The position numbers and the translations under genes are program-made. From a virus, in IMG/VR virus record IMGVR_UViG_3300013132_000107, positions 1 to 38,413 of that record: a stretch of DNA of 38,413 nucleotides; one strand, 5' to 3'. This document shows, one piece after another, positions 2,714-32,159 of the stretch; position 1 is the first letter of the stretch; each line of letters opens with the position of its first letter. The notes under the pieces are model-generated. The model had not been told where the DNA came from and did no database searches. It saw only the letters and a program-made list of their open reading frames with translations.

Positions 2714-4405
2714 ATGGCGCGCACCCCCCTTAATACAAGAGAGGCCCCCGTTGAACGCCGAGCCATTGCGAATGGCCTAATTGAATCCCGGCCGGGGGCG
2801 GGAGACCCATTTGGTTATGCTGGCCCGGGAATTTACCCAACAGCCGAAGGCGATCAGCTTATGGGTCGCGTTGCCGAGGCCCGAGCAAAAGCGATTTACG
2901 AGGCTCACGGGAGAAATGCAAATGCAGTCGCAAGAATGAAGCTTGATCCAAGTTATGCCTACGCAAGGGCGGCCGGCATCCAGCTTCCCGGTGACGGAAT
3001 GAAGGGAACATCCAAAACAGCCTCTTTGGCAGAAGGCCAGTCAGACGAGCTGATTGGGGGTGGCAGCCGAAGCACTCGCTATAAGGACGCCGGCGCGGCC
3101 ATGCGCGGAGGGGGTGATGCAAAGCCAATTGTTGAAGGCGTGTACGCGGGGCCAAGCGTAAACAACACAACCAAGGGGCCAAGACTAGACACGCAAAAAG
3201 GCTCAGGTTCGCAAACGCTTGATTCTTTGCCGGTAACCCAGCCCACGCCAGCAACTGGAGAAGGCGACAAGCCCAAGCCCCCTGCGCCAATGGCGGACCC
3301 GACATCCCCTCCTCCGCCAACTCCCACGCAACCCCAAGAGCAAAAGACCCCCACGGTTGAGAGCACCAAGGGACCGAGGCTTACCACCAATAGATCCCAA
3401 CCAAGTCGCGACGAAGACCTTGGAACAACCCGTGGCGCAACCCGAGACGAGGATGCCCGAGTTGCGGAGATTGCGATGAGTCCGGATGCCAACCTCCCTT
3501 ATGACGGGAAAGAGGGGCCGGGATCAAATCAGGCAAGACGCGAGGCCGCCAAAAAGGATTACGACTCAAAGGTTCAATCGGAAGCAAGGAAAGACCCATT
3601 CGCAAAATACAGAACCGAAGCCGGCGACACAGAAATATCCCAGCGAACTGGAGAGGTTCAGGACCGCTCTCGCTACGGCGGAGACAGGGTTGTCGACCGC
3701 AAGACATACACAAACAAGGATGGGCGAGAGATGGTTGGGAACACAATGCAACGCCCAGACGGAAGCACTTACTATGTTGGATTGGATTCGGCCGATCAGA
3801 ATAAGGCAAACACATTTAACGAAAACACAAAGGGAAGCTCATTCAACCAATACAACAACTACGCCCGAAAGCCGAAGGACTACAAGGCAAGCGCTGAGGA
3901 CGTGAGGGCCAATTACTCGTTTGGAGCTCCGGCCGGACAGCAGGGACAGCTAACAGCCGCTCCGGATGATGCGTTTGGCCGTGGGAACAGGAGACAGCTG
4001 GACGCAGACACGGCGAAGGCCAGCGCCGGATCGAATTACTCTGGAATTGATAGCCGTGGGCAGCAATCACAATCGCTAACCGCAGAGAGCAAAAGGCCTA
4101 TCAATGAAAACGAAACAAATCCGGTTCAGGCCAGCACATTTGCCGGAACAGGGGCAAGCCCAATTAACCCAGATCCCGGAGCAATGGGTGGCGGGGGAAG
4201 GAGTTTTGGCGTTGAGGCAACTATGCCATTTTCGATGAATGAAAACACGAAAGCACCGTCAAAATACAAAGGCCCGGAAACCATAAGCAACGTCAGTGGA
4301 CCCGGGGCAACTCCGGGCAACCAGACAACCGAATCCAAGGAAAAAGCGAAAGAGGGGAATAGACAGGCGGCAAAGAAGTCCGGAGAAAGACTCAACTTCG
4401 CTTAA
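2714..4405 (+). CDS. Disordered Pro/Gly/Asn-rich hypothetical virion protein (563 aa)
   Basis: The 563-residue product begins MARTPLNTREAP and is mostly low complexity: rich in Gly, Pro, Thr, Asn, Lys and Asp, with few long hydrophobic stretches, no signal peptide and no membrane segment. A proline tract lies near residues 180-210 (TPATGEGDKPKPPAPMADP and following). Short motifs recur: TKGPRL near residues 152 and 217, and NENTK near 370 and 508. I recognise no family. It sits between the terminase and the giant multidomain gene, whose ATG begins 3 bases after its stop, so they are very probably co-translated. An internal-core, chaperone or ejection-associated role is an inference from position and disorder. 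The start is preceded by AGGAG (2695-2699). Confidence 0.75.
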   Translation: MARTPLNTREAPVERRAIANGLIESRPGAGDPFGYAGPGIYPTAEGDQLMGRVAEARAKAIYEAHGRNANAVARMKLDPSYAYARAAGIQLPGDGMKGTSKTASLAEGQSDELIGGGSRSTRYKDAGAAMRGGGDAKPIVEGVYAGPSVNNTTKGPRLDTQKGSGSQTLDSLPVTQPTPATGEGDKPKPPAPMADPTSPPPPTPTQPQEQKTPTVESTKGPRLTTNRSQPSRDEDLGTTRGATRDEDARVAEIAMSPDANLPYDGKEGPGSNQARREAAKKDYDSKVQSEARKDPFAKYRTEAGDTEISQRTGEVQDRSRYGGDRVVDRKTYTNKDGREMVGNTMQRPDGSTYYVGLDSADQNKANTFNENTKGSSFNQYNNYARKPKDYKASAEDVRANYSFGAPAGQQGQLTAAPDDAFGRGNRRQLDADTAKASAGSNYSGIDSRGQQSQSLTAESKRPINENETNPVQASTFAGTGASPINPDPGAMGGGGRSFGVEATMPFSMNENTKAPSKYKGPETISNVSGPGATPGNQTTESKEKAKEGNRQAAKKSGERLNFA

Positions 4406-4408
4406 GAC

Positions 4409-7400
4409 ATGGGCTTGGACTCCATCACGGGCGGTAGCCCAAGGAACAAGGGCGAGGCCTATGAGGGCCCGATTGCGGCAGGATCTCCTTCTGGTTTACG
4501 CAAGTTTATTTCTGAGACAAAACAAGACGACAGGGATATTCAGGCAGAGGAGAAGAGCGCAACAAGGGCATTCGAAGGAGGGAAAAAAGAGGTTTTTGAA
4601 AGCGCCGGAATATCCACGTATACAGACCCGCAGGAAGGGCTTCAGCCAAAAGTATCCCTAGACCCAAGCACCGGAATCAGCCGGCTTGAAAGGCCCGAAG
4701 CGGAATTTTCAGTTCAGCGAAGGCTCCCAACCGGCGAGCTCGTTGACGACACGCTAAAAACAGACAAGTACGGCGGAGCCAAGGATCGGTCGGCAAAACG
4801 CCGGTCTCTAATTGTTGGAAAAGATGCCTCGTCAGACCCCAGAACCCCAAAAAGCGGAATTTACGAGGAGTTTGAAGATCCAAGACAGCCGGACGCCAAA
4901 AACTATAAATTTATCGGCGGCTACGAGGAGTTGGCTAACTCGCAGGATCTGGGGGTTCGGGATGTCGCCAGAAAGGGGCTTCTTGAGCAAAATCAAAAAG
5001 CCTCCTCCCTGCTTTCTTCCGAGCTTCAGACTCAAATCGACGAGGTTGAGCTTAAGGAGCGCGAATTGCGGGACATGGAAGCCGCATCAAAAACAACCGG
5101 CGAACTCCCCATTTTTGACGGCAAACAACTTCAGCCAGAGGAATCAGCCAAAACAAGACTTGGGCTACAACAGCAAGTCACGGACCTAAAAAAACAAAGG
5201 GTCGCACTTAAGCAAATTGAGAAGCAGGGCGTTGCCATGGACTTGCTTCGTCAGGCCAAGGAAAGGGCTCTTCGTGAAGGCAAAAATCCCTCCGACGATC
5301 CGGTGGTGCGTAGCCTTGAGGAGACCTACAGAACTCTAGGACGCGAAACCCCAGAAGAGGCATTTATGGCCAAGCCGGACCAAGTGGCCGTCGCCGGCGG
5401 AAGGGGGACAGTGATGGTCGAGGGCGCCACGCCAGACGTCCCGGCACAGCAAAATTCTGCGTTCTTTAGGACGGCCGGGAATGACCTCAGATCCAAGCTC
5501 AAGATTGAGCAAGAGGCCGGAAGCTCCGCAGTTGAGAAGGCCAAGCTCTCCATCAAGGCCCAAGAAGATTACAACCAAGCCAGCAAGGAAATCCTGCCTG
5601 CGGCAATTCGCAAGCAGACCATCAAACAGCTGGTGGACATATCCAACAGGGAGCTTGAGGAGGCCACGTCAAAATGGGATGAAATGACTCCTCAGGAGCA
5701 GGCCGAGTTTAATTCTCGGTTTGAAGGCCGTCGGCAGGCGATTCAGAGGCTTGGCGAAGAATACAAGTCCCTTGAGCCGGCGGCCAATGCCGCGTCCGAC
5801 AGAGTCGGAAACATTTTCAAAACATCGTCCGAGGCCGAAAAAGCCATCAACGATTCGTTTCAAAAAAAAACTGAAGAAATAACCAACGAAGCCAATGCCT
5901 TTGCCAAGGCGCAGTCAGAGAGGGCTTCAGCCGGAATTCGCGATGAGTATCTAAAAAGACAGGCAAACTTTAATGCAATGGGCCAAAGGTTCGGCCAGCT
6001 GGCCCAAGCCGGTGACGACACGGGGGTTGTTAAGCTTGCCCAAGATTACGTGGCCAACGGCGGAAGTCAGCAAGACGCCGACCGCATGCTCTCGGATTAC
6101 GGGAAATACAAAAAATCCAAGGACGGCCAAGGCTGGTTAGCCAACTCAATCGCCTCGTTCATGAGGGCTCCGCTCGTTGCCAGCCAAGAATCGGCGGCAG
6201 GCCTGTTCAAGATATCCGCAAGCGGACTTAGGGCCAAGGCGGCCGGAGGGGATGACGTAATGGACGCAATCGGCCCAGCCGGCTGGCTGGCCAAGGTGTT
6301 GCCAAGCTTGGAGGGCAACCCAGCCCTAGCCCCAGTCAGGGTCGCCTCCGACATGGCCGGGCAGGCCATTTTGGATAAGATTTACCAAACCAAGGCCGCC
6401 AAGCCGTTTGTTGAATACATAGCCGACTGGATGGACGAATCGGCCTCTTCGGCCAAGGGGAATATAGAGTCCCTGAAAAAGGGTTTTTACGTTGACCCGC
6501 AGTTCGAGGCCTCAACGGCCGGAAACTTTCTTAAGGGTATCGGCGATTACGCTTGGACAGCCCTTCCCTACATCGCGCTGAGGAGCAAGGGAATACCGGT
6601 CGGTATGGCGATGAACACCGGCCGGCTCTACACGGAAGCCCGAGAAGATCAGGAGCAAACCTATCAGGCCAAACTGGCCGAGTTTAAGGCTGGTAAAATC
6701 AAGGACGAACCAAAGCCACTCAATGAAGCAGACGCCCATATTGCCGCCCTAAGGTACGCAGGACTTGGCGGGTTTATCGACACCGTATCCGACGCCATCG
6801 GCATGAAACTTGCCTTTGGAATGCTTAAAGGCGCGGCCGCCGTAACCCCCAAGACATTGGGAAGCTTTTTCAAAAGAACCGCTGTTCAAGTCGGGGAGAA
6901 GAAAGTTCCGATGTGGCTGACGCCCCCCCTTGCCGGCGCAACCGAGTTTGGGGCAGAAGGATCCCAAAAACTTCTTTTGAACGCCTTGGCTGAAAAATAC
7001 GAAAACTGGGATCCCAGCAGGCCTTGGAACGAGGGCGCATTCCAAGAAGCGATGATGGGCTTCATGCTTGGCTTTACCCTTCCGATTATTGGTGGCGTCG
7101 GTGGGTCAATTTACAAAAAAACAGTGGTCATTCCATCCATGCTCATGGAGAACGAGGGACTGGACAATGTTTCCGGGCAATATCAAAACCTTTCTATCGA
7201 CGTTCCGATGGGCGGCTGGCGCCAGTACGCTGATACGGTCACGCCGGCCCAAGGTCAGGAAAACCCGCAATTCGAGCTTGCCGCAAGACAACCCTTTTCG
7301 GTTCAAAACGAGCTTCGCGGCACCGGGATTACATGGGCAATCGCAGTGGGACAGCGAATTGACTCCCAGCTTGTCGCGATCAACTCTCAGATTCAGCAGA

Positions 7401-10400
7401 CCAAAGATCCCGCGCAAGGCAAAATCCTTCGCCTAAAAAGAAACGACCTCCTTCTCCAGCGGTACAACCTCATTCAAGCCATGCAGGGGGACGCGGCCCT
7501 TCGCTTCTCGCTTCAGAACGAAATCGGATCCCTCCCCGACCAGCCGCTGGCCAAGGGTGATGCCAGCTTCCAGCAGGCCGCGCTTGCGGCCGCCAAACAC
7601 TCGGTGGGAGCCCCGCTGACCAAGCAGGATCTAAAGCTTAAGGTCGGAGGAACCCAGCTTTTCCAACAAACAGAAGACGGGAAGACAATTGTATCCCCTT
7701 CCTTCATGCGGTTTCTTTCCGGGAAGGCTCCAACTCTGGAGTCCGTTGTCGCCAACAATCAGAATTTATTGGATTCGGCTCCCCCGACCACGCTGGCCGA
7801 CCAGCCCCCCGTCCTTTCCGAGGCTCCAGCCCAAGAGGATGTCAGGGCGGAAAGAGATCAAGCCGCCAGACAAAAGCTTGAGGCGGAGCAACAGCAACCC
7901 CCGGAGCCAGCCCCCACGACAGACCAAGCCAAGCCGCAAACCGGCCAAACTTGGGCGGTCCCATACACAAAAAATGGGAAAATTAAGGGAACCCTGACAA
8001 TACAGGCCGAAAACGAAAACAAGGCCAAACAGCTTGCCCTAAAACAACTCAAGGAGGACGGGGCCAAAACAATCGCTTTTGGGGATGTTCGGCTGGCCGA
8101 ACAGCAGGAATTGGTCGGGCAGGAGCCATCCGCGCTCCTAACAGGGCCAGACACGCAAAGAAAGAGGGTTGGTGGGGCAATTAACCCCTACATGCGCCGG
8201 CTTGAAGGCAAAAACTCAAAGGAGAGATACATCAATGCTCGCCGTCGTTTGGAAAGATTTGCTGGAGAGGCCAGATCCATTTTCAAGGCATCCATAGGAA
8301 TCAGGGAGGACTCGGAGTCCAAGGCGGCGATAAAGGCCAGCCTAGCGGAGGACGGCACGATCAGCCTTGTCGTTAACCCAAGGCTATTCACTCGGCTGGA
8401 TGAAAAAGCGCCCGAATGGTCAAACAGGGCCTTTGGCGAGGAATTTCGACACATGGCTGACTTTATTGCCAGCAACCTCAAGGCCAATGAATCCGGCAGG
8501 TCCGACTACAAGCAGTTTTATCAGGAAGAACGCTCAAGGCTCTATCAAAACATTTTTGAGTCAGCCAAACAGGATCAAAGAATCCTTAACGCCCTCATGT
8601 CCTCGGCCTCCGTTTATTTCGGCAAGGATGGTCCGCCCATAAAGGAGGGCGGATATACGGCTGAGGAGTTTATGGAGTGGGCCGAAAGCTCCGGAATTAG
8701 CGATGTTACCCTGATGGGGGAACTTCTTCAGCAACTTAACTCCAAGCGAAGGACAGAGGTAGCGGCAGAGGTAGCGGAAGCTTCGGCAAGGGGCGGAGGA
8801 TCTGTAACGGCCAGCCTGATGGAGACCATCAAGGATTACCTGAAGTACATCCTCAGGGCCATTAACGGCCTTCGCCGGTCGCTATCTGAAACAAATCCGG
8901 AAGTTGCGGCGGATCTGGATTCGCTTATTCAGTCGATCAACGACGTTTTGGATATGAAGGCCGGACAGCAGGAAGCTTCCGGGCCATCAATTGATTCGGG
9001 AACCCAAAGAAGGCTTCGGGACATGGGGCTTACGCCGGCGGAGATATCCAACCTAACCCCGGATCAGGCCAAGCAGCGACTTCAAGGGCAAGTTCAGGTT
9101 TCTGGGCCAGCCCAAACGCAGGGACTAAAGTCCACAAATACCAGAAAGACGGAGTATGGCGTGGTGCGTTATGACTTGGACGTTGTTCCAATTAATGAGC
9201 TCAACAATATGGCAGGAACCGAGCTCCAGCTTCGAGATCGCACCGGGGACGAGGGGTACGCCTCAAAGGTTGCCGTTATTGCCCGGGATTGGGATAAGGA
9301 CGAAGCCGCGTCAAGGGACACCGGCGAGCTTGATACCGGCCCAGCAACCGTAATTGAGGCAAAGAACAACCCCTACGGCGTCAATCAGGCCGGCTTTGAC
9401 ATTATTGCCGGGCACGGAAGAACCGAGGGGTACTCGTCCGCTCCGGACGAAAGGGTCGCAGACTATGTCGCAAAACTGAAGGCCAAGTACCCCGAGCTAG
9501 CCGGGAAAATAGACGCAATATTGGCATCAGGCCAAAGGCCCATGCTGGTCAGGAAGATCGACTGGCAAAACACTTTCAATAGTTCGCTGGGAACCGAGAA
9601 ACAGCACTTACGGAGAATTGCGAGGGACGCCAATCTCGGCACGGGGAACGAAAACGATGCGGAAATTGCCCTAGCCGACGCCTTGGAAATCTCTGATGAC
9701 ATAGACCTTAGCCTTCCGCAGGAGGTCATGGTCAATGGGCAGCCAAGTCTCCTGAATCAGGATGGAACACCAGCCGGCAACAACGACGACATTTTGGCTA
9801 GGTGGCTACGCATATTCAGCAACGATAGCGACAGACGATACTATCAAAACGGCGTCTACACGCCCGATTTTGAAGCCAGAATCCGCAGGGCAATTCTTGG
9901 GTACGTGTTCGCCCCGACCAACGAGAAGGGTGAAATGGCCCTCACCAAGCAGACTTTCGACACAATCAACATGCTTGTTTCGCCAACGATTGCCCGAAAC
10001 AACGGAATCGCAACGCTTCAGCAAGGATTGGAGAAAGCCTCCCCTTCCCTGTTCCGGGTAAAACAGGATTTCCAGAAATACGAAGACCTTTTGGGTCAGG
10101 ATGCAAAAGACGCCAACCCCATAGTCGCCATCCAGAAATCCCTTTCGGATTATTTGGCCTACAGGGCCGAGCGGGAGCAGGCCGCCAGAAAGAGCGGAGA
10201 CAACAGGGCCATCGCCATGGTCGGGCTGGCCGAATACGAGGATTATATCAACCAGTCAGGCCTCTTTGGAACCATCAGCCCACAACAGGCCATGGTCCTT
10301 GTGCCTATCGTAAGGGACGGAAAGCTGGACGGCATTCAAGGCGTTGCCTCCCCGCTGGCTAAAATCCCGAACGCGCGAGGAATTAAGGGATCCCCGGAAA

Positions 10401-13400
10401 GAATCGCCTCTTATATCGCCAATTACTCAGACATGGTGGCAAGCATCTATCGGGAGGCCTCCGAAGCCATGTTGCCCGGGCTTGAGACCAAGCTTACGCC
10501 CGACCTCAATCTTAACATGATTCGCATCGCCCTTGATAGGGCCGGCGCAATCTACCCAGACAACTCCAAGCCGCAGGCGCCCATCTTCCCTGCCAAAAAA
10601 GACCCGCTTGAGCTTGCGGCCAGACAGCCAGACCTATTCGGCTCAACCATTGGAGAGACAAAAGGAAGCGTGGAAATACGGCCAGAAATCAATTACTCGC
10701 GCATCCTGAACCTCCTTGGGCCCAAAATGTATGAAAAGAACCTAGTTGAAGTTTCCGTCAAGGAACTCCTCCAGAACTCGTTTGATGCCGCTCGGGCCGC
10801 CGGCGCAACCAACGAAAATCCCGGAGAGGTTTTTATAAGGCTAGATCCAGACAAGAGAACGGTATCGGTGACGGACAACGGGGTCGGCATGACACCGGAA
10901 ATCATCCAAAAAGCCTTTTTCACGATTGCCGGAACCCACAAGGAGCAGAGCGCCGAAAACACCTCCGGCGGCCTAGGGCTCGCCAAAATGGCCTTCTTGT
11001 ATGGATCCGACAGCGTCAAGGTCGTCAGCGTTAGGGACGGGGTAAAGTCCACCGTTTTAACGGACCGGAAGACCCTTCTTAATCGAGACCCCATCAATGT
11101 GGTCACGGAAAAGACGTCTGAGCCGTCCGGAACAAGCGTTGAGGTTGTCATTCCTCAAACAATTGAGGACTCAGAGGGAAATACGAAGACACTATACTTT
11201 CCGCAAGAACCGGCATTTCTGAGCAAGCCGCTGATTGGCCCAATTAAAGTAACACTCGCCTATCCACCCAACCCGTATACAGGAGCAGTAAACAAAATTC
11301 TAAACCTAGGGGTAAACCAACAAGACTATCAGAAGGAAACTCGGTTCGGATTTTCTTGGGGAAATATTGATGTCTACATCAACCCGGAAAGGCAGAAGTA
11401 TCCAACGATTGAGATATTGTCTGCCGGCCTGCACCAGTTCGGACTTAGTCGCTATGACGTATTCGGCTGGCAGGAGGAGGGCGTCCTTCCATACAACATA
11501 GTTCTCGACGTCAGGCCGTCGGTTAAGCCAGAAAACGCCGCCTACCCATTCAACAACTCCAGAGAGGGATGGCGCGGAACCATCAAAGAGGACGTGGGCG
11601 CCATGTATGGGTACCTCAGGCGCATGGCAACCGAGCAAAACCTCCTTGAGGCCAAAGAATCGTTTTCAAACTTGGAAAAAATGCCTCAGTTCGACCCGCA
11701 GAAGGATCTTACTTCGGATGAGCTGGCTGACATAGCAGCCGCACGGCCCAAGCCACGGCCCACGGTTCCAATTGAGAAGCCGGAATTCGTTGATTTTTCT
11801 GGTGATAATGTGGTTATCAGGTACTCGGACCAATCGGGAATAAAGCCAAAGGAGATCCCCAAAGAGGAGTACGTTAAGCAGTCATTCAAGCCCGAAAAGG
11901 ACATTAATTTCCAGTCGGCGGCACTTGATGTCAGCGGAATGGATCCCCGCGTACCCCTGTTTCACAACAACACCAACATCGATCTTTCGGCTCAAGCGGA
12001 CGGAGGAAGGGCCAAAAAGATGTTTGCAAGCCTTGGAAACGCCCTTTCCGGCTTCATGCGGGAGTTTGGAGCAAAGGTGGGGCCGAATATGGAGCCTTAC
12101 GCAGCCTTGGCGTCCGATGGAGCGCAGGGGTGGTTTTCCGGCATATCCATAGACAAGGAATACAGGGGCCTGAACATGGTTAAGCCATTCAAGTCCATTT
12201 GGTTCAACCCTGCCGGCCTTTCCGAGGATGCCATGGTCAGCCCCGAAGCCGCCGCGTTAGAGACCATACACGTTTTCATCCATGAAATAACCCACGTTAA
12301 CGCAAGGAATGAGGGCTCTCAGTTTACCTCCGAGCTCGCAAACAACTATGCAAGGATCCGTGCCTTTGGCGTTGACGACATAGCAACAGAACGGATACTT
12401 GCTAGTATATATGCAAGACATTGGAAGGACATCAATGACCTCAGAACAAAATACATCAGCTACAACACAAAGAATAGTGCAAGAGGTTTTCAGTCGTCAT
12501 CAGAATCTCTCAGAACCGGCACAGAAGGAGGCCAATCTAATCAGCCTCAAGACAATCCATCGCAACCTGTCGGAAATGAAGGACAGGGACGAGGGGGCGA
12601 TAGCCGAACTGGAGAAGCAGATAGCGGCGCTAGCCTAGGCGAAATTATCGCATCCCGCGCCCGGGCGGAGCGCAAGTTACTAAGATATCCGAATAGGTAT
12701 TCCCTCTCCCTACGGGCTAGGGCTCCCGACCTATTCGAGTCCTCCGAGGAACCCGACAGCGAGCAGGATGCCGAGACTGGCGCAACCGAGGAGTCCGCAA
12801 GGAACGCCTACCTAGTCATACAGGAAATAGCCCCAATGGAGGGGCTCACCAGAACCGACCAAGGCATGAAGGAGGGCAGAATCAGGCCCGGGGGTAAGAT
12901 CATAACTTACTTGGTCAACAAGTCGGACGCCGGCGGAATGTCGGTAGCAGACAGATTCTATGCTCGCGGGTACGGAGAGGAGCAACTTCGGGAGGTAATT
13001 TATGACAAGATGGTCGACGTTCTCTCAAAGTCGGCCAGCGGCAAGCAGATTGCCAAGGACTTTTTGGCGACTCGCGTAAACGCAACTTCGAGCGATCTAA
13101 ATCTTTACACAGAGGCAAGAAAGGCCTTTGTCCAAAGGATTATTAGGAAGCTCCTTGTTTCCGGAAACAAGAATCCCTCAGTCGAGGACATTGTGGCAGA
13201 GATGAGCGACAAGGACCGAGCCCTTGGATTTGAAATGAGGCATATCGTCGGGGCAAGAGAAGAGATCAGGCTCAATAACTTTGTCATGAGGTCCGTTGAG
13301 AATCATGTCCGAAAACTGGTTGGGAACTACGATCAGGAGGGGAAGTCTCTTATTGTCACATCAGCAGAGGCTCGCGAAAGACGCCCAACTGAAATAGCCG

Positions 13401-16400
13401 ACGAAGACACGGAGAGCATGGTTGAGCGCAAATTTGTTAATCCAGAAACGGGCAATGAGTTGGACCAGAGGGCAGATGAGTCTGCAAACCTACAGGAAAC
13501 GCTACTTGCGGAGTCAGGAACTGCGGCGGAAGTAATGGCAAGATATCTTGGCCCGGACAGCTTGCGAATTATCGAAATGAAAGTTCGCGGAATGAGCTTC
13601 CAAGCAATTGCGGAAGAGGAACAGCTTTCCGGACACCGCCCCGACAACATCGCAAGATCAAGGTTCGAGGAAGCCTACTCAAAGGTTCTGAACGCCATCG
13701 ATGCAATCTACTCGGCAAAAAAAGCATTAGAATCCAAGCAGATTTTGACCCAAGAGGAAGAGTCGAAGCTGGACGATTTTGACGTGTTCCTGTCCGGAAG
13801 GCTTGGTCGCGGGGAAACATTTGAGTCAATTGCCTCGGCAAGGTCCGACGCCCAACGGGCAATTAAAGAATCCGGCGCAGGCGGTGGCCAGCTTGAGCTT
13901 GAGCTTGGGGCTAGGACGCCAGAAATTCTGGAGCCAAGATCATTTGAGTCTCTTGACTATGAAGAGGCTTATAAGGATTCATTCAAAAGGCCGGTTTTTG
14001 CAGTTCAGCTAAATGACGGAACAGTTATAGCTGACTCGGCGTGGAGAATCCACGCGAATGCCGTAGAGGGCTACCTAAAGCTGCCTGAAGATCTTGTTCA
14101 GAAAATAGTTGAGTCCGGGTTTATAAGAAACGGAGAGTGGACGACCAAGGTAAATGAGGGCGGCAGCAGGGGCGGTTCTCTTAGTTTCTACTACAAGCAG
14201 AATCCCCTACCTCCTCCTCGCCTTCTGGCAAAATACTTTGAGCTTCGAGACAAAATTAAGTCCGGAGAGTTTGCTCCGAAAGATGTCGACATGTTTGAGC
14301 GGATCGAGTCGATGGCCATCAGGTTTGGGTGGCCCATTCCGGTTCAGTTAAGGCTCTTCGACATTCCCAACATCACCAGAAGGTTGTCGGCCGAAGGCCA
14401 GCAAGCGTCGCAAGCCTTGCAGGACGAGTTTGATTTTGGCCCAACAGAGCTTCTCTCGAGAACTCCAGACCTGATGAGCCCAGACGAGCTTCAAGAAGCC
14501 CTAGACGGCGATTGGATCACAAGTGATGAAATTCAGGCCGCCCTTCGTGACGAGTCTGCCGGGGACCGGCGCGGCCTTGTTGATTACGGGAAAGGCTCTG
14601 AGGCCAGCGCAGTCATCCGGGCCGGAAGAGAGGCGACCCCAAGCCCGGAGCCATACACAAACGAAGAAGCGATGGCAAAAGCAGACACAATTTCAAGAAG
14701 CCAGATTCTCGGTCGTCTTGCCGGGCTTGAGGCGGGAGAGGTTTTATCCAAGGACGAGGACTATGCGGCCCAGAGGGAGCTAAATCAGCTGGCCCTAGAG
14801 GCCTTCGCCTCGGAAGACGAGAAGCAGATCAACGATTTCCTCTATTTGCAGAGGCAATACGACAAATCCGGGACTGAGGCCGCCCGGTCCCTTCAAGGCA
14901 GAAAGCCCTTCAATCCCGACGACAGGAGAAGAAAGGCCGTTTATACGCCAATCACGGCAATTGATCGGCGCGACCTTCAAAAAGAAGCCATCAACCAGAC
15001 TGCAAAGCTGAAGGCGGACTTATCTATCGCGGAAGATTCGCTGAACGAGCAAAAGACCCGAGCAAGAGCCCAGTTTGGCGCAAATCTTCCGCAAGAATGG
15101 ATTGATTATATTAGCCAGCAGGAGGCCGCCATAGCCCAAATGAAGGCCGACATTGAGGACGGAGGAGTCCGAGTGGCGGAACGCGAAATCCTCTCCCGGA
15201 ACGCACAAAAAGCAGATCAGGCCCTAGGCAAGGTCGGCAAAAGCCTGAAGGGGCTGGAAGAGGATAACATGAAGAAGAAGCTTCGGACCGGTCAAACAGC
15301 CGGCCAGATCCTTGAGTCTATAAAAGACACACAGCTTCGCGATGCGGTGCAATTATACCTTTTGGGCTATTCAGTCAAAGACATTGAACTTCAGACAGGA
15401 ATCAAAAACGGAAGAAACAAAATCAAGCTGGCTATCCTAAAGGGGCTACGGCCAGAGGCAGACAGGCGATTTAGCAGGGTTCTCGAAATGGTTAAGGCCG
15501 GGAAGATGACCCGCAAGCAACTCATGAAGGCCCTTAAAAAGCACTCCGAGGGTCAAGGCCTGCTTGCCAGAGCTCCGGAAGATCCGGATCAGGACAATTT
15601 CACCGTGGATGAGGCCAGAAAGATGCTTTACGACGCCTTCGGCCTAAACACGGAAAACCTAGAGAATAAGGAGAGCGATCCCCTGTTCGGGTACGACGAT
15701 CCCCATGCGGCCAACAGGATCTCGAGCATTATCTCCGAGGGCATCAACGGGCCGGCCTCTTGGGGCAAGATTGCCTCCGACGTTTTCTCATCCTTCATCT
15801 TTACGGGATCCCCTTCCCTCGTGGCCAACGTCTCCACCATTCCATTCGCCAAGCTTACCGTCCCTGCCCACCTATTTGTGGAAGCGCTGACCACCTACTA
15901 CAGGGGCGCAATTCGTGGCGTAAAGATGACCGAAACAGTTTACGACAAAGTTCCGACTTTCGACGAGGAGGGCAATCCTTCCGGATCCCGCATAGCCCCC
16001 AAAGAGGTGGAAATTGGCTCCCCATACCAGACCCTAGGTCAGGCAATCAGCGGAGGATTGTCGGAGGCGTTCAGGGCCTACAAGGAGCTTGGATGGCTTG
16101 GTAGGGATGCCGAGGCATGGCAAAAAGCCATGACTGCGTTCACCACGGAAAGAATCCAGTTTGGGGTCGAGCAGGGCATCGTAAATGTCTCCGATATTAG
16201 GCTCAGGGAATCCGGGGTTCTGGACAAATCCATCCCCGGGCTTGCAGGGAAATTAGTAAGGCTGGGCGTTAACACCCTTCTCGCCGGCGACGAATATAAC
16301 AAAACAATGCGAGCAAGGGCTTACGTGGGGGCATTTGCCTACAGGCTCGCAAAGGCTCGTGGGCTCTCGGGCGAGGCACTTGACCAATATGTGGAAAGCG

Positions 16401-17986
16401 AGCTCTCGGACAAGGGGTCTTTGGCTTGGCGGCTTGCCGTGGACAGAACCCTACGCGACACCTTTACCCAACGGCTCTCCATCCGTGGGGACGAGGAGCT
16501 ACTCACCCCGGAGCCGCTATGGGAAAAGGCCAAGGGGCTCGGGAGATCCTTAAGGGACTATCAGTCGATTGGCGAGCTTCTCGGGCTGGCCCCCGAGGCT
16601 CTTACCATGATTAATATGGAGCTCGGCAAGGCCGCAACGCGAGTTGGGCGCGGCTCTAGCATCAAGGTTTTTGGAAGATCCCTTTCCCCGGCCGAGCTTG
16701 CCCTCCGCTTTGTCCAGAGCTTCCTGATTTTGATTAGAAGCCCATACAACATCGCGCGAGCCTCTGCCGCCTACTCACCTCTGGCGATGGCCAATGTGGC
16801 CCTCCGGGCCTCCCGTGGGCGTGTTGCTAACACCATGAATGTTTTTGACTATAATGCCCTCGCCCAAAGGCATTCAGAGGCTTTGCTCGGAATTGCCGGC
16901 CTAGCATCGCTGTTTGCGTTTGCGGAGGGGGACGACGATGACGACAAAAAGCCAATTTTAATCACTGGGTCAGGGGCGGTCCGAACCAAGTACGGGAATC
17001 CATCGACATCCGTAATCATAAGGACTCCGCTCGGCAACTATGTCATTCCCTACGGGCGATATGAGCCGGTCAGCGCCCTCGCCTACGTGGCCGACGCGGC
17101 AAGATCCACAAAGCAGGTCGTCAAGGGCAGGCAACCAGCCCCGGAAGCTCTTGGGGACTATGTTAAGGAGTTTTTGCGGTATCCATTTACAAAGACATTC
17201 TCCAAGGCCATCAGGGACTTTGGGAAGCTAACCGGCTTCGATAACCCGTCAGACACCGGCAAATACAAGGGCTACGACGTTCTAAGGGAAAGGGCCTCAT
17301 CAATTCTTATCCCTAATTTCTTCAAGAGGTTGTTTGAGCCGGGTGCGGTCACCTTTGGTGACGAGTCGTGGGATGTGGACAGAATGACTGGGTGGGGGCC
17401 AGCGGAAATGGCCGGATGGGTCAACTCCTTCATGCCCGGCCTGCCTGCCCTTACCGGAAATGAGGACTCGGCCCTTCCGCCTCGGTATGGAGCAGACCTC
17501 AAGGTCAGGGATCGTGAAATAACCGGAGCCGAGGTCATCGCAAAATCCGCCGGCATCCCGGACAGAGCCTCAAGAATGATCGGGGGACTTACCAAGGGGC
17601 TTGTCCCGGATGGGCTTGCCTACGTCGAATCAAAGAAGGGCCACTTGGAAAGGTTTGTTGCGGCATACAACTCACGCTTCCCGCAGACCAGATACCAGCC
17701 GAAAGCCCCAAACAGGTTCATTCAGGTAAAGGACAGGGACGGAATCTCCTCAAACGAGGAAATGACTCCGGCCGAATACAAAACAATGCTGGCCCTTGCC
17801 TCCAAGTACGCCGGCGACCGGATAGACAATGTCCTTACCGAGGAAAGAATTTCCAATCCAACCGAAAACACCAGAAAGCTTGTGGACTCAATCCGCGAGG
17901 ACGCAGTAAGCCGCGCCAGACAGGCAATCAGGAACGCGCGACGCGCAAAAGAGAAAATGGCTGTTGAGCCGGCCGGCGTCAGGTAG
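4409..17986 (+). CDS. Giant multidomain polyvalent protein (4,525 aa), candidate polyprotein
   Basis: One uninterrupted frame encodes 4,525 residues, more than a third of the window. In order: a coiled-coil-rich region (about 1-600); hydrophobic segments near 712-735, 788-812 and 881-902; a region with a degenerate zincin-like EEFRH (1344-1348); a ParB/DdrB-like domain (about 1580-1720); a GHKL ATPase (about 2085-2400); a HEITH zincin (2625-2629); a sigma-70-like segment (about 2900-3100); an unassigned domain (about 3170-3345); a coiled-coil/HTH part (about 3350-3715); and a C-terminal LPD38-like region with hydrophobic helices (about 3790-4250). Such architectures are known as phage 'polyvalent proteins', thought to be delivered with the DNA to counter or reprogram the host. 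Six copies of an L-x-[A/S]-R-x-P motif lie between the domains. No T7-like RNA polymerase motifs are visible. The portal gene follows 11 bases downstream. Virion packaging is inferred. Confidence 0.9.
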   Translation: MGLDSITGGSPRNKGEAYEGPIAAGSPSGLRKFISETKQDDRDIQAEEKSATRAFEGGKKEVFESAGISTYTDPQEGLQPKVSLDPSTGISRLERPEAEFSVQRRLPTGELVDDTLKTDKYGGAKDRSAKRRSLIVGKDASSDPRTPKSGIYEEFEDPRQPDAKNYKFIGGYEELANSQDLGVRDVARKGLLEQNQKASSLLSSELQTQIDEVELKERELRDMEAASKTTGELPIFDGKQLQPEESAKTRLGLQQQVTDLKKQRVALKQIEKQGVAMDLLRQAKERALREGKNPSDDPVVRSLEETYRTLGRETPEEAFMAKPDQVAVAGGRGTVMVEGATPDVPAQQNSAFFRTAGNDLRSKLKIEQEAGSSAVEKAKLSIKAQEDYNQASKEILPAAIRKQTIKQLVDISNRELEEATSKWDEMTPQEQAEFNSRFEGRRQAIQRLGEEYKSLEPAANAASDRVGNIFKTSSEAEKAINDSFQKKTEEITNEANAFAKAQSERASAGIRDEYLKRQANFNAMGQRFGQLAQAGDDTGVVKLAQDYVANGGSQQDADRMLSDYGKYKKSKDGQGWLANSIASFMRAPLVASQESAAGLFKISASGLRAKAAGGDDVMDAIGPAGWLAKVLPSLEGNPALAPVRVASDMAGQAILDKIYQTKAAKPFVEYIADWMDESASSAKGNIESLKKGFYVDPQFEASTAGNFLKGIGDYAWTALPYIALRSKGIPVGMAMNTGRLYTEAREDQEQTYQAKLAEFKAGKIKDEPKPLNEADAHIAALRYAGLGGFIDTVSDAIGMKLAFGMLKGAAAVTPKTLGSFFKRTAVQVGEKKVPMWLTPPLAGATEFGAEGSQKLLLNALAEKYENWDPSRPWNEGAFQEAMMGFMLGFTLPIIGGVGGSIYKKTVVIPSMLMENEGLDNVSGQYQNLSIDVPMGGWRQYADTVTPAQGQENPQFELAARQPFSVQNELRGTGITWAIAVGQRIDSQLVAINSQIQQTKDPAQGKILRLKRNDLLLQRYNLIQAMQGDAALRFSLQNEIGSLPDQPLAKGDASFQQAALAAAKHSVGAPLTKQDLKLKVGGTQLFQQTEDGKTIVSPSFMRFLSGKAPTLESVVANNQNLLDSAPPTTLADQPPVLSEAPAQEDVRAERDQAARQKLEAEQQQPPEPAPTTDQAKPQTGQTWAVPYTKNGKIKGTLTIQAENENKAKQLALKQLKEDGAKTIAFGDVRLAEQQELVGQEPSALLTGPDTQRKRVGGAINPYMRRLEGKNSKERYINARRRLERFAGEARSIFKASIGIREDSESKAAIKASLAEDGTISLVVNPRLFTRLDEKAPEWSNRAFGEEFRHMADFIASNLKANESGRSDYKQFYQEERSRLYQNIFESAKQDQRILNALMSSASVYFGKDGPPIKEGGYTAEEFMEWAESSGISDVTLMGELLQQLNSKRRTEVAAEVAEASARGGGSVTASLMETIKDYLKYILRAINGLRRSLSETNPEVAADLDSLIQSINDVLDMKAGQQEASGPSIDSGTQRRLRDMGLTPAEISNLTPDQAKQRLQGQVQVSGPAQTQGLKSTNTRKTEYGVVRYDLDVVPINELNNMAGTELQLRDRTGDEGYASKVAVIARDWDKDEAASRDTGELDTGPATVIEAKNNPYGVNQAGFDIIAGHGRTEGYSSAPDERVADYVAKLKAKYPELAGKIDAILASGQRPMLVRKIDWQNTFNSSLGTEKQHLRRIARDANLGTGNENDAEIALADALEISDDIDLSLPQEVMVNGQPSLLNQDGTPAGNNDDILARWLRIFSNDSDRRYYQNGVYTPDFEARIRRAILGYVFAPTNEKGEMALTKQTFDTINMLVSPTIARNNGIATLQQGLEKASPSLFRVKQDFQKYEDLLGQDAKDANPIVAIQKSLSDYLAYRAEREQAARKSGDNRAIAMVGLAEYEDYINQSGLFGTISPQQAMVLVPIVRDGKLDGIQGVASPLAKIPNARGIKGSPERIASYIANYSDMVASIYREASEAMLPGLETKLTPDLNLNMIRIALDRAGAIYPDNSKPQAPIFPAKKDPLELAARQPDLFGSTIGETKGSVEIRPEINYSRILNLLGPKMYEKNLVEVSVKELLQNSFDAARAAGATNENPGEVFIRLDPDKRTVSVTDNGVGMTPEIIQKAFFTIAGTHKEQSAENTSGGLGLAKMAFLYGSDSVKVVSVRDGVKSTVLTDRKTLLNRDPINVVTEKTSEPSGTSVEVVIPQTIEDSEGNTKTLYFPQEPAFLSKPLIGPIKVTLAYPPNPYTGAVNKILNLGVNQQDYQKETRFGFSWGNIDVYINPERQKYPTIEILSAGLHQFGLSRYDVFGWQEEGVLPYNIVLDVRPSVKPENAAYPFNNSREGWRGTIKEDVGAMYGYLRRMATEQNLLEAKESFSNLEKMPQFDPQKDLTSDELADIAAARPKPRPTVPIEKPEFVDFSGDNVVIRYSDQSGIKPKEIPKEEYVKQSFKPEKDINFQSAALDVSGMDPRVPLFHNNTNIDLSAQADGGRAKKMFASLGNALSGFMREFGAKVGPNMEPYAALASDGAQGWFSGISIDKEYRGLNMVKPFKSIWFNPAGLSEDAMVSPEAAALETIHVFIHEITHVNARNEGSQFTSELANNYARIRAFGVDDIATERILASIYARHWKDINDLRTKYISYNTKNSARGFQSSSESLRTGTEGGQSNQPQDNPSQPVGNEGQGRGGDSRTGEADSGASLGEIIASRARAERKLLRYPNRYSLSLRARAPDLFESSEEPDSEQDAETGATEESARNAYLVIQEIAPMEGLTRTDQGMKEGRIRPGGKIITYLVNKSDAGGMSVADRFYARGYGEEQLREVIYDKMVDVLSKSASGKQIAKDFLATRVNATSSDLNLYTEARKAFVQRIIRKLLVSGNKNPSVEDIVAEMSDKDRALGFEMRHIVGAREEIRLNNFVMRSVENHVRKLVGNYDQEGKSLIVTSAEARERRPTEIADEDTESMVERKFVNPETGNELDQRADESANLQETLLAESGTAAEVMARYLGPDSLRIIEMKVRGMSFQAIAEEEQLSGHRPDNIARSRFEEAYSKVLNAIDAIYSAKKALESKQILTQEEESKLDDFDVFLSGRLGRGETFESIASARSDAQRAIKESGAGGGQLELELGARTPEILEPRSFESLDYEEAYKDSFKRPVFAVQLNDGTVIADSAWRIHANAVEGYLKLPEDLVQKIVESGFIRNGEWTTKVNEGGSRGGSLSFYYKQNPLPPPRLLAKYFELRDKIKSGEFAPKDVDMFERIESMAIRFGWPIPVQLRLFDIPNITRRLSAEGQQASQALQDEFDFGPTELLSRTPDLMSPDELQEALDGDWITSDEIQAALRDESAGDRRGLVDYGKGSEASAVIRAGREATPSPEPYTNEEAMAKADTISRSQILGRLAGLEAGEVLSKDEDYAAQRELNQLALEAFASEDEKQINDFLYLQRQYDKSGTEAARSLQGRKPFNPDDRRRKAVYTPITAIDRRDLQKEAINQTAKLKADLSIAEDSLNEQKTRARAQFGANLPQEWIDYISQQEAAIAQMKADIEDGGVRVAEREILSRNAQKADQALGKVGKSLKGLEEDNMKKKLRTGQTAGQILESIKDTQLRDAVQLYLLGYSVKDIELQTGIKNGRNKIKLAILKGLRPEADRRFSRVLEMVKAGKMTRKQLMKALKKHSEGQGLLARAPEDPDQDNFTVDEARKMLYDAFGLNTENLENKESDPLFGYDDPHAANRISSIISEGINGPASWGKIASDVFSSFIFTGSPSLVANVSTIPFAKLTVPAHLFVEALTTYYRGAIRGVKMTETVYDKVPTFDEEGNPSGSRIAPKEVEIGSPYQTLGQAISGGLSEAFRAYKELGWLGRDAEAWQKAMTAFTTERIQFGVEQGIVNVSDIRLRESGVLDKSIPGLAGKLVRLGVNTLLAGDEYNKTMRARAYVGAFAYRLAKARGLSGEALDQYVESELSDKGSLAWRLAVDRTLRDTFTQRLSIRGDEELLTPEPLWEKAKGLGRSLRDYQSIGELLGLAPEALTMINMELGKAATRVGRGSSIKVFGRSLSPAELALRFVQSFLILIRSPYNIARASAAYSPLAMANVALRASRGRVANTMNVFDYNALAQRHSEALLGIAGLASLFAFAEGDDDDDKKPILITGSGAVRTKYGNPSTSVIIRTPLGNYVIPYGRYEPVSALAYVADAARSTKQVVKGRQPAPEALGDYVKEFLRYPFTKTFSKAIRDFGKLTGFDNPSDTGKYKGYDVLRERASSILIPNFFKRLFEPGAVTFGDESWDVDRMTGWGPAEMAGWVNSFMPGLPALTGNEDSALPPRYGADLKVRDREITGAEVIAKSAGIPDRASRMIGGLTKGLVPDGLAYVESKKGHLERFVAAYNSRFPQTRYQPKAPNRFIQVKDRDGISSNEEMTPAEYKTMLALASKYAGDRIDNVLTEERISNPTENTRKLVDSIREDAVSRARQAIRNARRAKEKMAVEPAGVR
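9145..9570 (+). other. ParB/DdrB-like domain within the giant protein
   Basis: Residues about 1580-1720 contain a segment VVRYDLDVVPINELN, then GTELQLRDRTGDE, and the core IIAGHGRTEG (1665-1674), which resembles the GxGR signature of ParB/sulfiredoxin-fold domains of the DdrB type found in phage polyvalent proteins. In those proteins the domain is thought to bind nucleic acid or hydrolyse nucleotides. It sits between linker motifs 1 and 2. The assignment rests on motif resemblance only. Confidence 0.6.
10685..11650 (+). other. GHKL-type ATPase domain within the giant protein
   Basis: Classic GHKL (Hsp90/MutL/histidine-kinase) ATP-binding motifs are visible in order: the N box KELLQNSFDAA (about 2117-2127, with the Mg-chelating Asn), the G1 box VTDNGVGM (about 2154-2161) and the G2 box SGGLGLAK (about 2186-2193). 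The domain starts about 15-20 residues after linker motif 2. GHKL domains in polyvalent proteins are thought to act as ATP-driven switches. There is no histidine-phosphorylation domain, so this is not a canonical sensor kinase. Confidence 0.85.
12020..12480 (+). other. Zincin metallopeptidase domain (HEITH) within the giant protein
   Basis: A canonical zincin HExxH motif reads HEITH at residues 2625-2629, on a hydrophobic helix beginning ALETIHVFI and followed by VNARNEGSQFTSELANNYAR. An acidic residue downstream may be the third zinc ligand. The domain lies between the GHKL ATPase and linker motif 3. It is the only intact protease-like motif seen in the chain, so it is a candidate for self-processing or for attacking a host protein. 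Which of these is true cannot be read from sequence. Confidence 0.7.
12435..12638 (+). CDS. Candidate out-of-frame nested gene (67 aa helical protein)
   Basis: In the +1 frame relative to the giant gene, an ATG at 12435 opens 67 codons ending at TAG 12636-12638. GGAAGGA at 12423-12429 lies 5 bases upstream, a good Shine-Dalgarno. The product looks like a real helical protein: MTSEQNTSATTQRIVQEVF, then SEPAQKEANLISLKTIHRN, ending in heptad-like EGAIAELEKQIAALA. Over the same bases the giant frame is low complexity (Ser, Gly, Gln, Asn), as expected where a linker tolerates overprinting. Alternatives are a programmed +1 frameshift giving a shorter giant product, or chance. Confidence 0.4.
   Translation: MTSEQNTSATTQRIVQEVFSRHQNLSEPAQKEANLISLKTIHRNLSEMKDRDEGAIAELEKQIAALA
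12960..13725 (+). other. Sigma-70-like segment within the giant protein
   Basis: Residues about 2860-3100 are helical. The end reads LRIIEMKVRGMSFQAIAEEE (about 3051-3070), which resembles the helix-turn-helix of sigma-70 region 4 ('...vl.l...eglsy.eIAe.l...'). An upstream helical segment EARKAFVQRIIRKLL with NPSVEDIVAEM could correspond to a region-2-like part. The segment is bounded by linker motifs 3 and 4. An injected sigma-like or anti-sigma factor would fit early takeover, but only the region 4 resemblance is visible. Confidence 0.4.
15780..17300 (+). other. C-terminal LPD38-like membrane-associated region of the giant protein
   Basis: After linker motif 6 the chain contains hydrophobic segments: FSSFIFTGSPSLVANVS (from about 3792), FVQSFLILIRSPYNIARASA (about 4101-4120) and ALLGIAGLASLFAFAEG just before an acidic DDDDDKK (about 4173). 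A following RTPLGNYVIPYGRYEPVSAL stretch also resembles the large polyvalent-protein-associated family LPD38. These segments suggest membrane contact, possibly during DNA ejection. Assignment is by recollection of family appearance and is moderate. Confidence 0.5.
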
Positions 17987-17997: not shown

Positions 17998-20217
17998 GTG
18001 GCTTCACCCCAAATAGAAAACCTTGTCAATCAGGCAGAAGAACTCGAAAAGGCGCTTGAGAGCGCGAAGCCCGAGCAGAACGAGACTGCCCTAGGCGGAG
18101 GAGTCCCGGCCGAAACCGGCTTTTCGTCTCCCTATAAGCTTACCGAGCAACAGGAAGCCATTCTGGTCGAATATGCAGTCGAAAGGCTCAGAAAGACCGA
18201 AACCGAGATGGGCCGGTCCCTTATTCGCGGGGTTGCTTGGGCCAGCCAAACCGGAACCATGGCGGCCCACGAATCGTTTTTAGGCCGCCGGCAGGTTTAC
18301 GAATGGCTCTACGAGAACAATGTCGAATGGCGCCCTACGGTCATGGGTGGAATTTTCGAGCACAGCAATCTGATCGTTCCGGTGACCCGCCGTATTGTCC
18401 GACAAATGATTGCAAGGGCTCAGAAATATTTTATCGGTACAGAGCCTTGGTTTAACACCTTTCCGCAGGGGCCGGCAGACCGAAATGTGTCCGAAAGGGT
18501 CGAGAAATACGCCCGGTGGAAATTCGACAAGACCAAGCTCAAAGAAGCCGTGGCAATGATCCTGCAAATGGCCTTTGTTCGCGGAGAGTGCGTGGTCAAG
18601 ACAACCCACCAAAAGAAGGAATCAATCTTTCAGCGTAAAGCCAAGGTGTTGGTTGATGTTAATGGAAACGACATCCTTGCCTCGGACGGGGACATCATCA
18701 CCGACATGGATTCATTCATCCCCGGGCCGGATGGCATCACGATGATCCTGCAAAGAGACGGAGTCACCCAACAGCCCATCGTCCCGATTTTCATCGAGAA
18801 GACCATCACCCGAAAGATTGTCCTGCATGAAGGCCCAACAGCAGAGCCGGTCTACTATCAGGACTTCATCTGCCCCTTGAACGCCACCAGCGTGGATGAT
18901 GCTGATTTTTGCGCCCACCTTTACGACGCTCCGGTCATGGAGCTTGCCGACTTCTACTCAAAGTCAAAAAGCGAGGAAACTCCGGAAGCCGAGCTCCTGC
19001 GGATTCAGGCCGCCATCGAGCAGATCCGCCTGTCCGCCGGCGAAAGCAGTAACCCCAAGACAGCCGCCAAACAGGCCAGAAGCGAGCGCGGGGAGGCCGA
19101 AGTAACCAACGATCAGGAGAACCCAACGATTGAGATCGCAGAATGCTATCTCAGATACGACGCCAACGGGGACGGCATTACCGAGGAAATCATGCTCATG
19201 CTGGATGTCCGCAACCGCAAGGCCATCTACTACGACTACCTCGCCAATGTGACACCAGACGGCAAAAGGCCGTTTACAGTGGTTCGGATTAACCCTGTTG
19301 ACGGACGCTGGTACGGGCTTGGCGGCGTCGAACAATTCAAAACATCACAGGATTTTATCGATCTTACCATTAACCGCTTAAACTTTTCCCAGAGTGCCTC
19401 AGGAAGGGTCACCTTCTGGCGTCCTGACGCTACTTTTGAGGGGTCGGCCAACCCAAACCTGATATTAAACACAGGTGGGACGTATACTCTGCGTCCGGGC
19501 TTCAACGCGGCCGATGCCCTCACTTATGTCACCCTGCCGGAAACCAAGAACCAAGACCTAAACTTCATGCTAAACTACTTCACTCAGCTTGTTCAGCTTG
19601 AGTCTGGCGTGATTCATGGTGGGGATCAGGAGTTTTCCGGACTCCCAAGCTCCAAGCTTGCCACAGGGATCCGCTCCATCGATCAGGCCGGGAACGAGAT
19701 GTTCAGCCAGTACCTCCTCAGCTTGGAGAGCGGGTTAAACCAAATTCTGAGCCGGCTGATGCACATCCTTTTGGACAACTTAGACAGAGTTGAAGCATTT
19801 ACATACCTAGAGGGAGATGCCATCAGCCTGATCTCGGTAAATCCCGAAGAGGTCAAGGACTTCAATCTAAACGTCAAAATCCTTCTTACCCGCTACCATG
19901 GGGAGCAACAGCTCCAGAGCAACGCCCAAGCCGCCAACATGGTGGCCCAGTTCTACGGACTTCCTCCGGAGGTTCAGCAGAAGGTCGCCCTGTTCTACAG
20001 GCAGAGCCTCAAGGCTCTTGGGATTATGGAGGCAGACTCCATCATTGTCGCTTTTGAGCCGCCCCCTGCCCCGGGCGGAATCACTCCAGACGGGCGTGTT
20101 TTTGGTCAGGCCGGATCACCGGGGTCGCCGACAAGCTCGGTCGGGAATGCCCGTCAAGTTCCCTTGGACGCCGGACCAGCCGGAGGAGCAAGCCCAGAAA
20201 CCGGGACAGCGGTTTAG
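17998..20217 (+). CDS. Portal protein
   Basis: This is the head-tail portal that forms the ring for packaging and ejection. Its 739 residues fit large podoviral (P22/N4-like) portals. Visible features are an N-terminal helical region (YKLTEQQEAILVEYAVERL), a wing region with YLRYDANGDGITEEIMLML and PFTVVRINPVDGRWYGLG, and a helical stem/crown region with LNFMLNYFTQLVQLESGVI, GLPSSKLATGIRSIDQAGNE and LNQILSRLMHILLDNL. This arrangement is typical of portal families. The C-terminus is Pro/Gly-rich and disordered. GTG is the start, supported by the AGGAGG at 17985-17990. It lies between the giant gene and several virion genes and upstream of scaffold and capsid, as expected of a head module. Confidence 0.9.
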   Translation: MASPQIENLVNQAEELEKALESAKPEQNETALGGGVPAETGFSSPYKLTEQQEAILVEYAVERLRKTETEMGRSLIRGVAWASQTGTMAAHESFLGRRQVYEWLYENNVEWRPTVMGGIFEHSNLIVPVTRRIVRQMIARAQKYFIGTEPWFNTFPQGPADRNVSERVEKYARWKFDKTKLKEAVAMILQMAFVRGECVVKTTHQKKESIFQRKAKVLVDVNGNDILASDGDIITDMDSFIPGPDGITMILQRDGVTQQPIVPIFIEKTITRKIVLHEGPTAEPVYYQDFICPLNATSVDDADFCAHLYDAPVMELADFYSKSKSEETPEAELLRIQAAIEQIRLSAGESSNPKTAAKQARSERGEAEVTNDQENPTIEIAECYLRYDANGDGITEEIMLMLDVRNRKAIYYDYLANVTPDGKRPFTVVRINPVDGRWYGLGGVEQFKTSQDFIDLTINRLNFSQSASGRVTFWRPDATFEGSANPNLILNTGGTYTLRPGFNAADALTYVTLPETKNQDLNFMLNYFTQLVQLESGVIHGGDQEFSGLPSSKLATGIRSIDQAGNEMFSQYLLSLESGLNQILSRLMHILLDNLDRVEAFTYLEGDAISLISVNPEEVKDFNLNVKILLTRYHGEQQLQSNAQAANMVAQFYGLPPEVQQKVALFYRQSLKALGIMEADSIIVAFEPPPAPGGITPDGRVFGQAGSPGSPTSSVGNARQVPLDAGPAGGASPETGTAV

Positions 20218-31887: not shown

Positions 31888-32159
31888 ACATTGACATAGA
31901 GATATCAGACATAAGGGACCGGCTTCAAACCCAAGGAGAGCGCCTTGCCCGAATGGAGCAGAGGCAGATTCAAATCCACGACTGGCTTCATGGCCACGTT
32001 CAAAAACTTGATGAATGTGACATGAGGATTACAGAATTGGAGCGGCAGTCCCACGGCCTGAGGGCCAAGCTTTGGCTTGTCGGAGTTGTGGCAGGCGCCG
32101 TCGTTTCCGCTATCTGGCAAATCCTCTCTATTAAATTTCAAATTCTTTTTGGAAAATGA
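31884..32159 (+). CDS. Coiled-coil plus single TM protein (XhlA-like, possible holin accessory)
   Basis: GTG start in a GTGA overlap with the serine-rich gene. The 91-aa product has an N-terminal amphipathic coiled coil (DIRDRLQTQGERLARMEQRQ, then DMRITELERQ) and one C-terminal membrane segment (LWLVGVVAGAVVSAIWQIL) with a short cytoplasmic-looking tail. This layout is that of haemolysin XhlA-type lysis accessory proteins. It lies about 800 bases before the spanin-holin-endolysin genes, in the same operon, which supports a lysis role. It could also be a membrane anchor of the virion assembly site. Confidence 0.6.
   Translation: MNIDIEISDIRDRLQTQGERLARMEQRQIQIHDWLHGHVQKLDECDMRITELERQSHGLRAKLWLVGVVAGAVVSAIWQILSIKFQILFGK

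Follow-up and report, generated by a model that had tools for sequence, protein, structure and literature searches.

A GHKL-zincin cassette within a giant polyvalent-type phage protein encoded between terminase and portal genes

The virus record analyzed here (38,413 bases, hereafter the window) contains one uninterrupted ATG frame of 4,525 codons (4409-17986, + strand), whose product carries a GHKL ATPase joined to a zincin-type metallopeptidase site. The two occur as one cassette in a series of phage giants, and the giant of a close relative is built without it. These comparisons show a predicted clamp-metalloprotease which behaves as a cassette moving in and out of such giants. The best overall explanation is a packaged and ejected giant, in which a chassis bears payload cassettes and one payload would be a host-directed clamp-protease; as a whole, this explanation is considered somewhat more probable than not.

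The giant gene, its neighbors and its close relatives

The giant gene lies in the head operon. Upstream are the terminase large subunit (917-2653, +; phrog_24361 terminase, 2e-11) and a disordered 563-aa ORF (2714-4405, +), which has no family match and is 58% identical to its counterpart in the relative G001; the giant starts 3 bp past the end of this ORF. The portal gene (17998-20217, +; PF23899, SU10_portal, 2.4e-26; phrog_1216) follows 11 bp past the end of the giant, and the gene for the major capsid protein (26956-28479, +; PF13252, 1.4e-13; phrog_334) is located further downstream. The order terminase, 563-aa ORF, giant and portal is common to the window and G001, such that in both the giant is encoded together with virion and portal-terminase genes, as polyvalent proteins are. 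The earlier note had taken the placement beside the portal as a pointer to an internal core protein or ejected effector, yet placement by itself proves nothing, and it is found only in the lineage of the window, G001 and G014.

G001 is a closed 64.8-kb relative bearing a repeat of about 145 bp at its ends, and its giant of 4,428 aa is 86-88% identical to that of the window. Because dN/dS between the two is 0.045, indicative of purifying selection, the window frame is coding and constrained, and the single 13.6-kb gene described in the earlier note is real. The second relative, G014 (a 64.9-kb circle with 127 bp of overlap), codes for a giant of 4,772 aa when the frame is read across the origin of the record. 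Its identity to the window giant is 67% over window aa 1-2077, 50% over aa 2760-3355 and 76% over aa 3348-4525. The intervening aa 2078-2759, which correspond exactly to the GHKL-zincin cassette, are missing from the G014 giant, and the remainder of the window protein is matched; G014 also carries an 858-aa insertion at a site other than that of the cassette.

Several other genes of these genomes may be recorded here. A 214-aa ORF of the window (31243-31887) consists almost entirely of Ser/Thr/Gly/Arg repeats, and is flanked by two paralogues (30461-31246 and 32156-32977; 36% identity across some 100 aa), both with tails rich in Ser, Gly and Asp. A 349-aa ORF (36197-37246, - strand) has a G001 orthologue which is a group 1 glycosyltransferase (PF00534, 8e-11). 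G001 further codes for a 193-aa protein (L009, 7251-7832, - strand) in which the C-terminal DNA-binding domain of DnaA is recognized (PF08299, 2e-18).

The GHKL ATPase and the zincin site

Within the cassette, the GHKL ATPase and its transducer-like domain extend over aa 2093-2419 (10685-11665; all parts of the giant are on the + strand). The GHKL signature recognized in the earlier note was confirmed by a Pfam search with the whole protein, in which HATPase_c_3 (PF13589) matched at E=1e-11, over the curated cut-off. The N-box, G1 and G2 motifs and the Bergerat fold that define GHKL ATPases are all present, and the nearest NCBIfam models are HSP90 (1e-10) and TopoVI-B (3e-7). A structure model of aa 2060-2720, built from 12 aligned sequences (pLDDT 73), resembles Hsp90, TopoVI-B and GyrB (VIA Z ~19, rmsd 3.9-4.7 Å, 290-305 residues), these matches being filled by the ATPase part. 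As judged from the model, the GHKL portion consists of an ATPase and a transducer rather than representing a histidine kinase. The succession of ATPase motifs and a transducer-like domain is shared with Hsp90, topoisomerase VI-B, GyrB and MORC, yet those proteins have partner domains of their own, and the window protein has a zincin in that place.

The GHKL domain also matches RIIA families (phrog_24904, 6e-6; tblastn matches to rIIA genes). T4 RIIA is a phage counter-defense protein with an N-terminal GHKL ATPase (PMC7824862), and the likeness favors an alternative in which the giant would be made late, stay inside the cell and not enter virions at all, for instance as an RIIA-like anti-exclusion factor. 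The similarity is limited to the ATPase domain, however; T4 RIIA stands as a protein of its own whose C-terminus varies, whereas the GHKL domain of the window is an internal cassette of a head-operon giant, and the chassis of its relatives are virion-type polyvalent proteins. The intracellular alternative is thus regarded as very improbable, and a packaged protein is preferred.

The HEITH signature, also reported in the earlier note, was likewise confirmed. The zincin-like domain (aa 2578-2704; 12140-12520) was aligned with 11 relatives, in which the H-E-H residues are invariant, and the predicted zinc site HEITHVNARNE (12281-12313; HExxHx5E) lies about 450 residues C-terminal of the GHKL motifs. 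The pattern HExxHx5[H/E] is conserved in 14 giants and appears in none of 300 shuffles of the protein; by sequence, HExxH and a third ligand are present in all 14 complete cassettes, the third ligand being Glu in the window, G001, L016, L027 and L028, and His in the remaining ones. Weak metallopeptidase matches are obtained with the relatives (WLM, 5e-4; YgjP-like, 2e-4), all of them below the curated cut-offs. Since the relatives carry HExxHx5[H/E] at this position together with these weak matches, the domain around HEITH is a predicted zincin. WLM and YgjP-like metallopeptidases exhibit the same HExxHx5H spacing as the relatives, but the window zincin differs from them in its third-ligand Glu and its fusion to GHKL. 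The polyvalent zincins described by Iyer et al. (PMC5512222), in turn, have a helix-borne glutamate, whereas the cassette spaces its third ligand as HExxHx5[H/E]. A still larger polyvalent giant, of at least 5,410 aa, is encoded by L027 (1-16234, 5' end open); it carries the cassette and has two HExxHx5[H/E] sites.

Distribution of the cassette and the linkers at its borders

Profile scans recovered relatives of the cassette in 12 IMG/VR records besides G001, and in the Acidobacteria MAG contig L028. The 14 complete cassettes comprise that of the window, those of 12 other IMG/VR records (G001 included) and that of L028; L026, which ends inside the cassette, is excluded. GHKL and zincin always form one unit of about 600-700 aa (about 680 aa in the window; aa 2078-2759, 10640-12685), and the N-box, DxGxGMT, SG[GS]xGxAKM and HExxHx5[H/E] motifs are intact in every complete cassette (14/14). 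The giants around these cassettes otherwise have little in common. Those of G002, L020 and L025, and of the close relatives L017 and L021, are of the PLxRFG/LPD39 type, those of L018 and L019 have LPD38, that of L023 has LPD22, and those of the window and L016 are devoid of any known domain of this kind. The window and L016 are 48% identical within the cassette and do not align anywhere else, and the cassette tree intermixes the PLxRFG, LPD38 and LPD22 chassis. Between the window and G001, synonymous divergence (pS) is 0.53 in the cassette and 0.64-0.76 in all 477 equal-sized overlapping windows outside it, which would fit later acquisition or exchange of the cassette.

Among the queries used, no cultured-phage homologue of the whole cassette was found, the matches being either to RIIA-type ATPases or to C-terminal PLxRFG regions. 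PADLOC models gave zero matches, and in the literature searched the terms 'polyvalent protein' and 'GHKL' co-occurred in a single paper, where they stand in separate contexts. It is tentatively proposed, with the balance of probability leaning slightly against it, that the cassette is an undescribed, horizontally mobile clamp-protease payload of the ejected giants of many uncultured phages, which is swapped between unrelated chassis at linkers.

Other features were observed in or beside the giants of these records. A convergent gene of 951-958 aa, on the opposite strand, comes after the giant in L017, L018, L020, L021 and L003. The L018 polyvalent giant contains MORN repeats (aa 570-640; PF02493, 2e-17). 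Two paralogues in tandem, each of about 137 aa and with 50% identity to one another (L003, 2221-3044; G002, 56992-57815), look like putative acetyltransferases; they immediately precede a Gln/Ala-rich ORF of 1202 aa and the giant.

The borders of the cassette are marked by a short motif, LxARxPD. Copies are found at its left edge (LAARQPD, aa 2069; 10613-10633), at its right edge (LRARAPD, aa 2768; 12710-12730), at the edge of the second indel site along the protein (LGARTPE, aa 3166; 13904-13924), at the site of the 858-aa insertion of G014 (LLSRTPD, aa 3348; 14450-14470) and at aa 3718 (LLARAPE; 15560-15580), with a degenerate copy, LAARQPF, at 7277-7297. Besides the cassette and the G014 insertion, the third of the large indels is a module of about 97 aa in the window (aa 3173-3271; 13925-14221), which is missing in G001 and is replaced in G014 by a second HTH copy. 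Copies of the motif abut all three. For three points placed at random, the probability that every one lies no more than 12 aa from a copy is 3e-5, a value to be read as a guide only, as the motif was picked post hoc; an unbiased pattern count gave 5 copies in the window protein versus 4-5 in shuffles, which is marginal, and a slightly clearer 6 versus 4-5 in G014. An origin of the motif as a DNA-level repeat was rejected, codon identity (26 of 68, with 19.5 expected) being slightly over expectation. The idea that polyvalent giants in general carry the motif was likewise discarded, for PEp14, LASTA, Parlo and douglas 12A4 lack it. A 346-aa ORF preceding the capsid gene (25889-26929) contains a copy as well, which was set aside, since a single copy outside the giant is, by our own estimate, at about the level of chance. 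In the L019 giant, an FSRxQ-like motif analogous to LxARxPD appears between domains (aa 517, 1203, 1426, 1558, 1575, 1683 and 2418); FSR occurs eight times, and FSR.Q six times versus at most four for any pattern in shuffles.

The linkers bear upon the main rival to a host-directed protease, in which the zincin would cut the giant at LxARxPD into separate effectors, either before packaging or after ejection. Autoprocessing has been proposed for polyvalent metallopeptidases (MPTases) in general, and P1 DdrB is processed, with its MPTase proposed as the processing enzyme (Iyer et al. 2017, PMC5512222). The position of the motifs at module borders and their conservation mainly at the protein level would agree with such a role, as would the six FSRxQ copies between the domains of the L019 giant. 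However, G014 retains the linkers, and even has extra copies, in a giant lacking any GHKL-zincin cassette; because of this, a zincin of the window type cannot be the required linker-cutting enzyme in G014. In addition, N4 vRNAP, likewise equipped with an MPTase domain, enters the virion without being processed (PMC5512222). Self-processing is therefore judged unlikely, and a host or defense protein is more likely as the predicted substrate than the giant itself.

Polyvalent identity, packaging and possible function

The remaining regions of the giant gave less distinct assignments. A helical region (aa 2793-3165; 12785-13903) contains an HTH, with its core at aa 3041-3110 (13529-13738), which is duplicated in G014, and a second HTH-like segment is located at aa 3626-3680 (15284-15448; HTH_7, E=0.012, below cut-off). 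The earlier note had called this part sigma-like, a designation which was not supported: the region has no above-cut-off match in any library, its structure model is poor (pLDDT 55; 74-82 in the HTH part) and shows no sigma fold, and no sigma region is matched in the window protein. The best sigma score, Sigma70_r4_2 at 7.7e-4 in the extra HTH copy of G014, is below cut-off. As Pfam, PDB sequence, profile and fold searches yielded no solid support for a sigma factor, the part is callable as HTH only. The ParB/DdrB-like signature survived in a weak form, at aa 1587-1717 (9167-9559), where the ddrB-ParB family (PF18763) gave E=0.0056 with the whole protein and 2.6e-4 with a fragment (17.3 and 21.6 bits), on both occasions below the gathering score of 27.6 bits.

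The hydrophobic ends were upheld in part, as two segments. One, near aa 881-903, belongs to a hydrophobic, membrane-like N-terminal region (aa 570-905; 6116-7123) with low dN/dS; the other, at aa 4155-4180 (16871-16948), precedes an acidic DDDDD cluster and is separated from the C-terminus by 371 aa. A hydrophobic segment with an acidic cluster after it is likewise located 148-371 aa before the end of all examined giants whose C-terminus is intact, apart from that of L028. The C-terminal region itself (aa 3722-4525; 15572-17983) has no family match and is 87% identical in G001. Pattern scans with the C-terminal and HTH regions returned G001 alone or nothing, although with few short patterns relatives can be missed. 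Profile comparison did not demonstrate homology of the N- and C-terminal regions with the ends of other giants; in hhalign, the window ends were collinear with the LPD38, PLxRFG and LPD22 chassis, without significance.

Of the domain families named in the earlier note for a profile search, GHKL was thus recovered above cut-off and ddrB-ParB below it, and no LPD was found in the window protein. Nor did the protein yield any polyvalent-specific Pfam domain above cut-off, any LPD, PLxRFG or DarB family match, the PLxRFG C-terminal domain (NF032893) at E<=1, or a Pfam match for DNA methylase and SNF2-type helicase at E<=0.1. The polyvalent reading of the earlier note stands instead by linkage, as the cassette resides in giants with LPD39, LPD38, LPD22 or a PLxRFG C-terminus; the G002 giant, for example, has a PLxRFG/DarB-like chassis (phrog_10089, 4e-71; NF032893, 1e-116). 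The polypeptide combines domains of disparate activity, namely GHKL above cut-off, the zincin site and the HTH, with the ParB-like domain weak. It resembles the polyvalent proteins of Iyer et al. (2017, PMC5512222) in its great size, its many domains and its adjoining virion genes, as well as in the zincin, the weak DdrB-ParB and the LPD22, LPD38 and LPD39 giants of its cassette relatives, yet the words GHKL, HATPase, histidine kinase and sigma are absent from the main text of that paper. By size, operon and linkage, the window giant is best filed as a putative phage polyvalent protein, and its modular polyvalent nature is considered likely.

The length, which the earlier note had called exceptional, is not so: the giant gp69 of podovirus JC1 has 4,515 aa (PMC9144972), and those of PEp14, LASTA and Parlo have 4,914, 4,433 and 3,764 aa. 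These DarB-like/PLxRFG giants of Bcep22-like podoviruses share with the window giant the size class, the late operon and the hydrophobic and acidic C-terminal segment, and in G002 a PLxRFG chassis bears the cassette. They differ in content, with a HepA-type helicase match in JC1 gp69 and DNA methylase in annotated relatives, as opposed to GHKL-zincin and no detectable PLxRFG sequence in the window. For JC1 gp69, of the DarB-like/PLxRFG type, 51 unique peptides were recovered from purified virions of the podovirus, which shows it to be a virion protein (PMC9144972). In L018 and L020, a homologue of a DNA-ejection protein is encoded two genes ahead of the giant, which would accord with an ejected product. 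On the grounds of homology and gene context, the window giant is probably carried in the phage head and introduced into the bacterium along with the DNA.

A different role in the head may also be considered, in which the protein serves as a structural core or ejection conduit and its enzyme-like domains act mechanically in head assembly, portal docking or DNA translocation. The operon position with terminase and portal in the window and G001, the hydrophobic segments towards both ends and the ejection-protein neighbors in the relatives are all in keeping with it. The cassette is nevertheless dispensable, as seen from G014, and is found in giants with differing neighbors, and its catalytic motifs, intact in all 14 cases, would not be needed for pure structure; such a role is deemed quite unlikely.

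In the preferred explanation of a packaged giant with payloads, the gene would code for a late polyvalent protein which enters the virion and is ejected with the phage DNA. The hydrophobic N-terminal region and the C-terminal region with its hydrophobic/acidic segment would constitute the chassis, into which payload cassettes would be plugged at the short LxARxPD linkers. One payload would be an ATP-dependent GHKL clamp (ATPase and transducer) fused to the zincin protease. Early in infection, the clamp would close on ATP and capture a host protein or protein-DNA complex, and the captured target, for example one involved in defense or host takeover, would be handed to the zincin. The enzymatic activity of the cassette and its host target are inferred, and the host-directed clamp-protease step is put forward as a possibility towards which we remain rather skeptical.

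Polyvalent proteins are regarded as the weapons that a phage delivers first, yet few have been tied to a function. The linkers and the clean indel borders suggest a route by which payloads may be exchanged, and if the mobile clamp-protease payload proposed here is real, phages would equip a single delivery protein with different effectors for a first strike. The window or G001, set against G014, forms a natural pair with and without the cassette, whereby the function of one payload is directly testable, and G014, with its linkers and no protease of this type, makes autoproteolytic processing of such giants testable as well.
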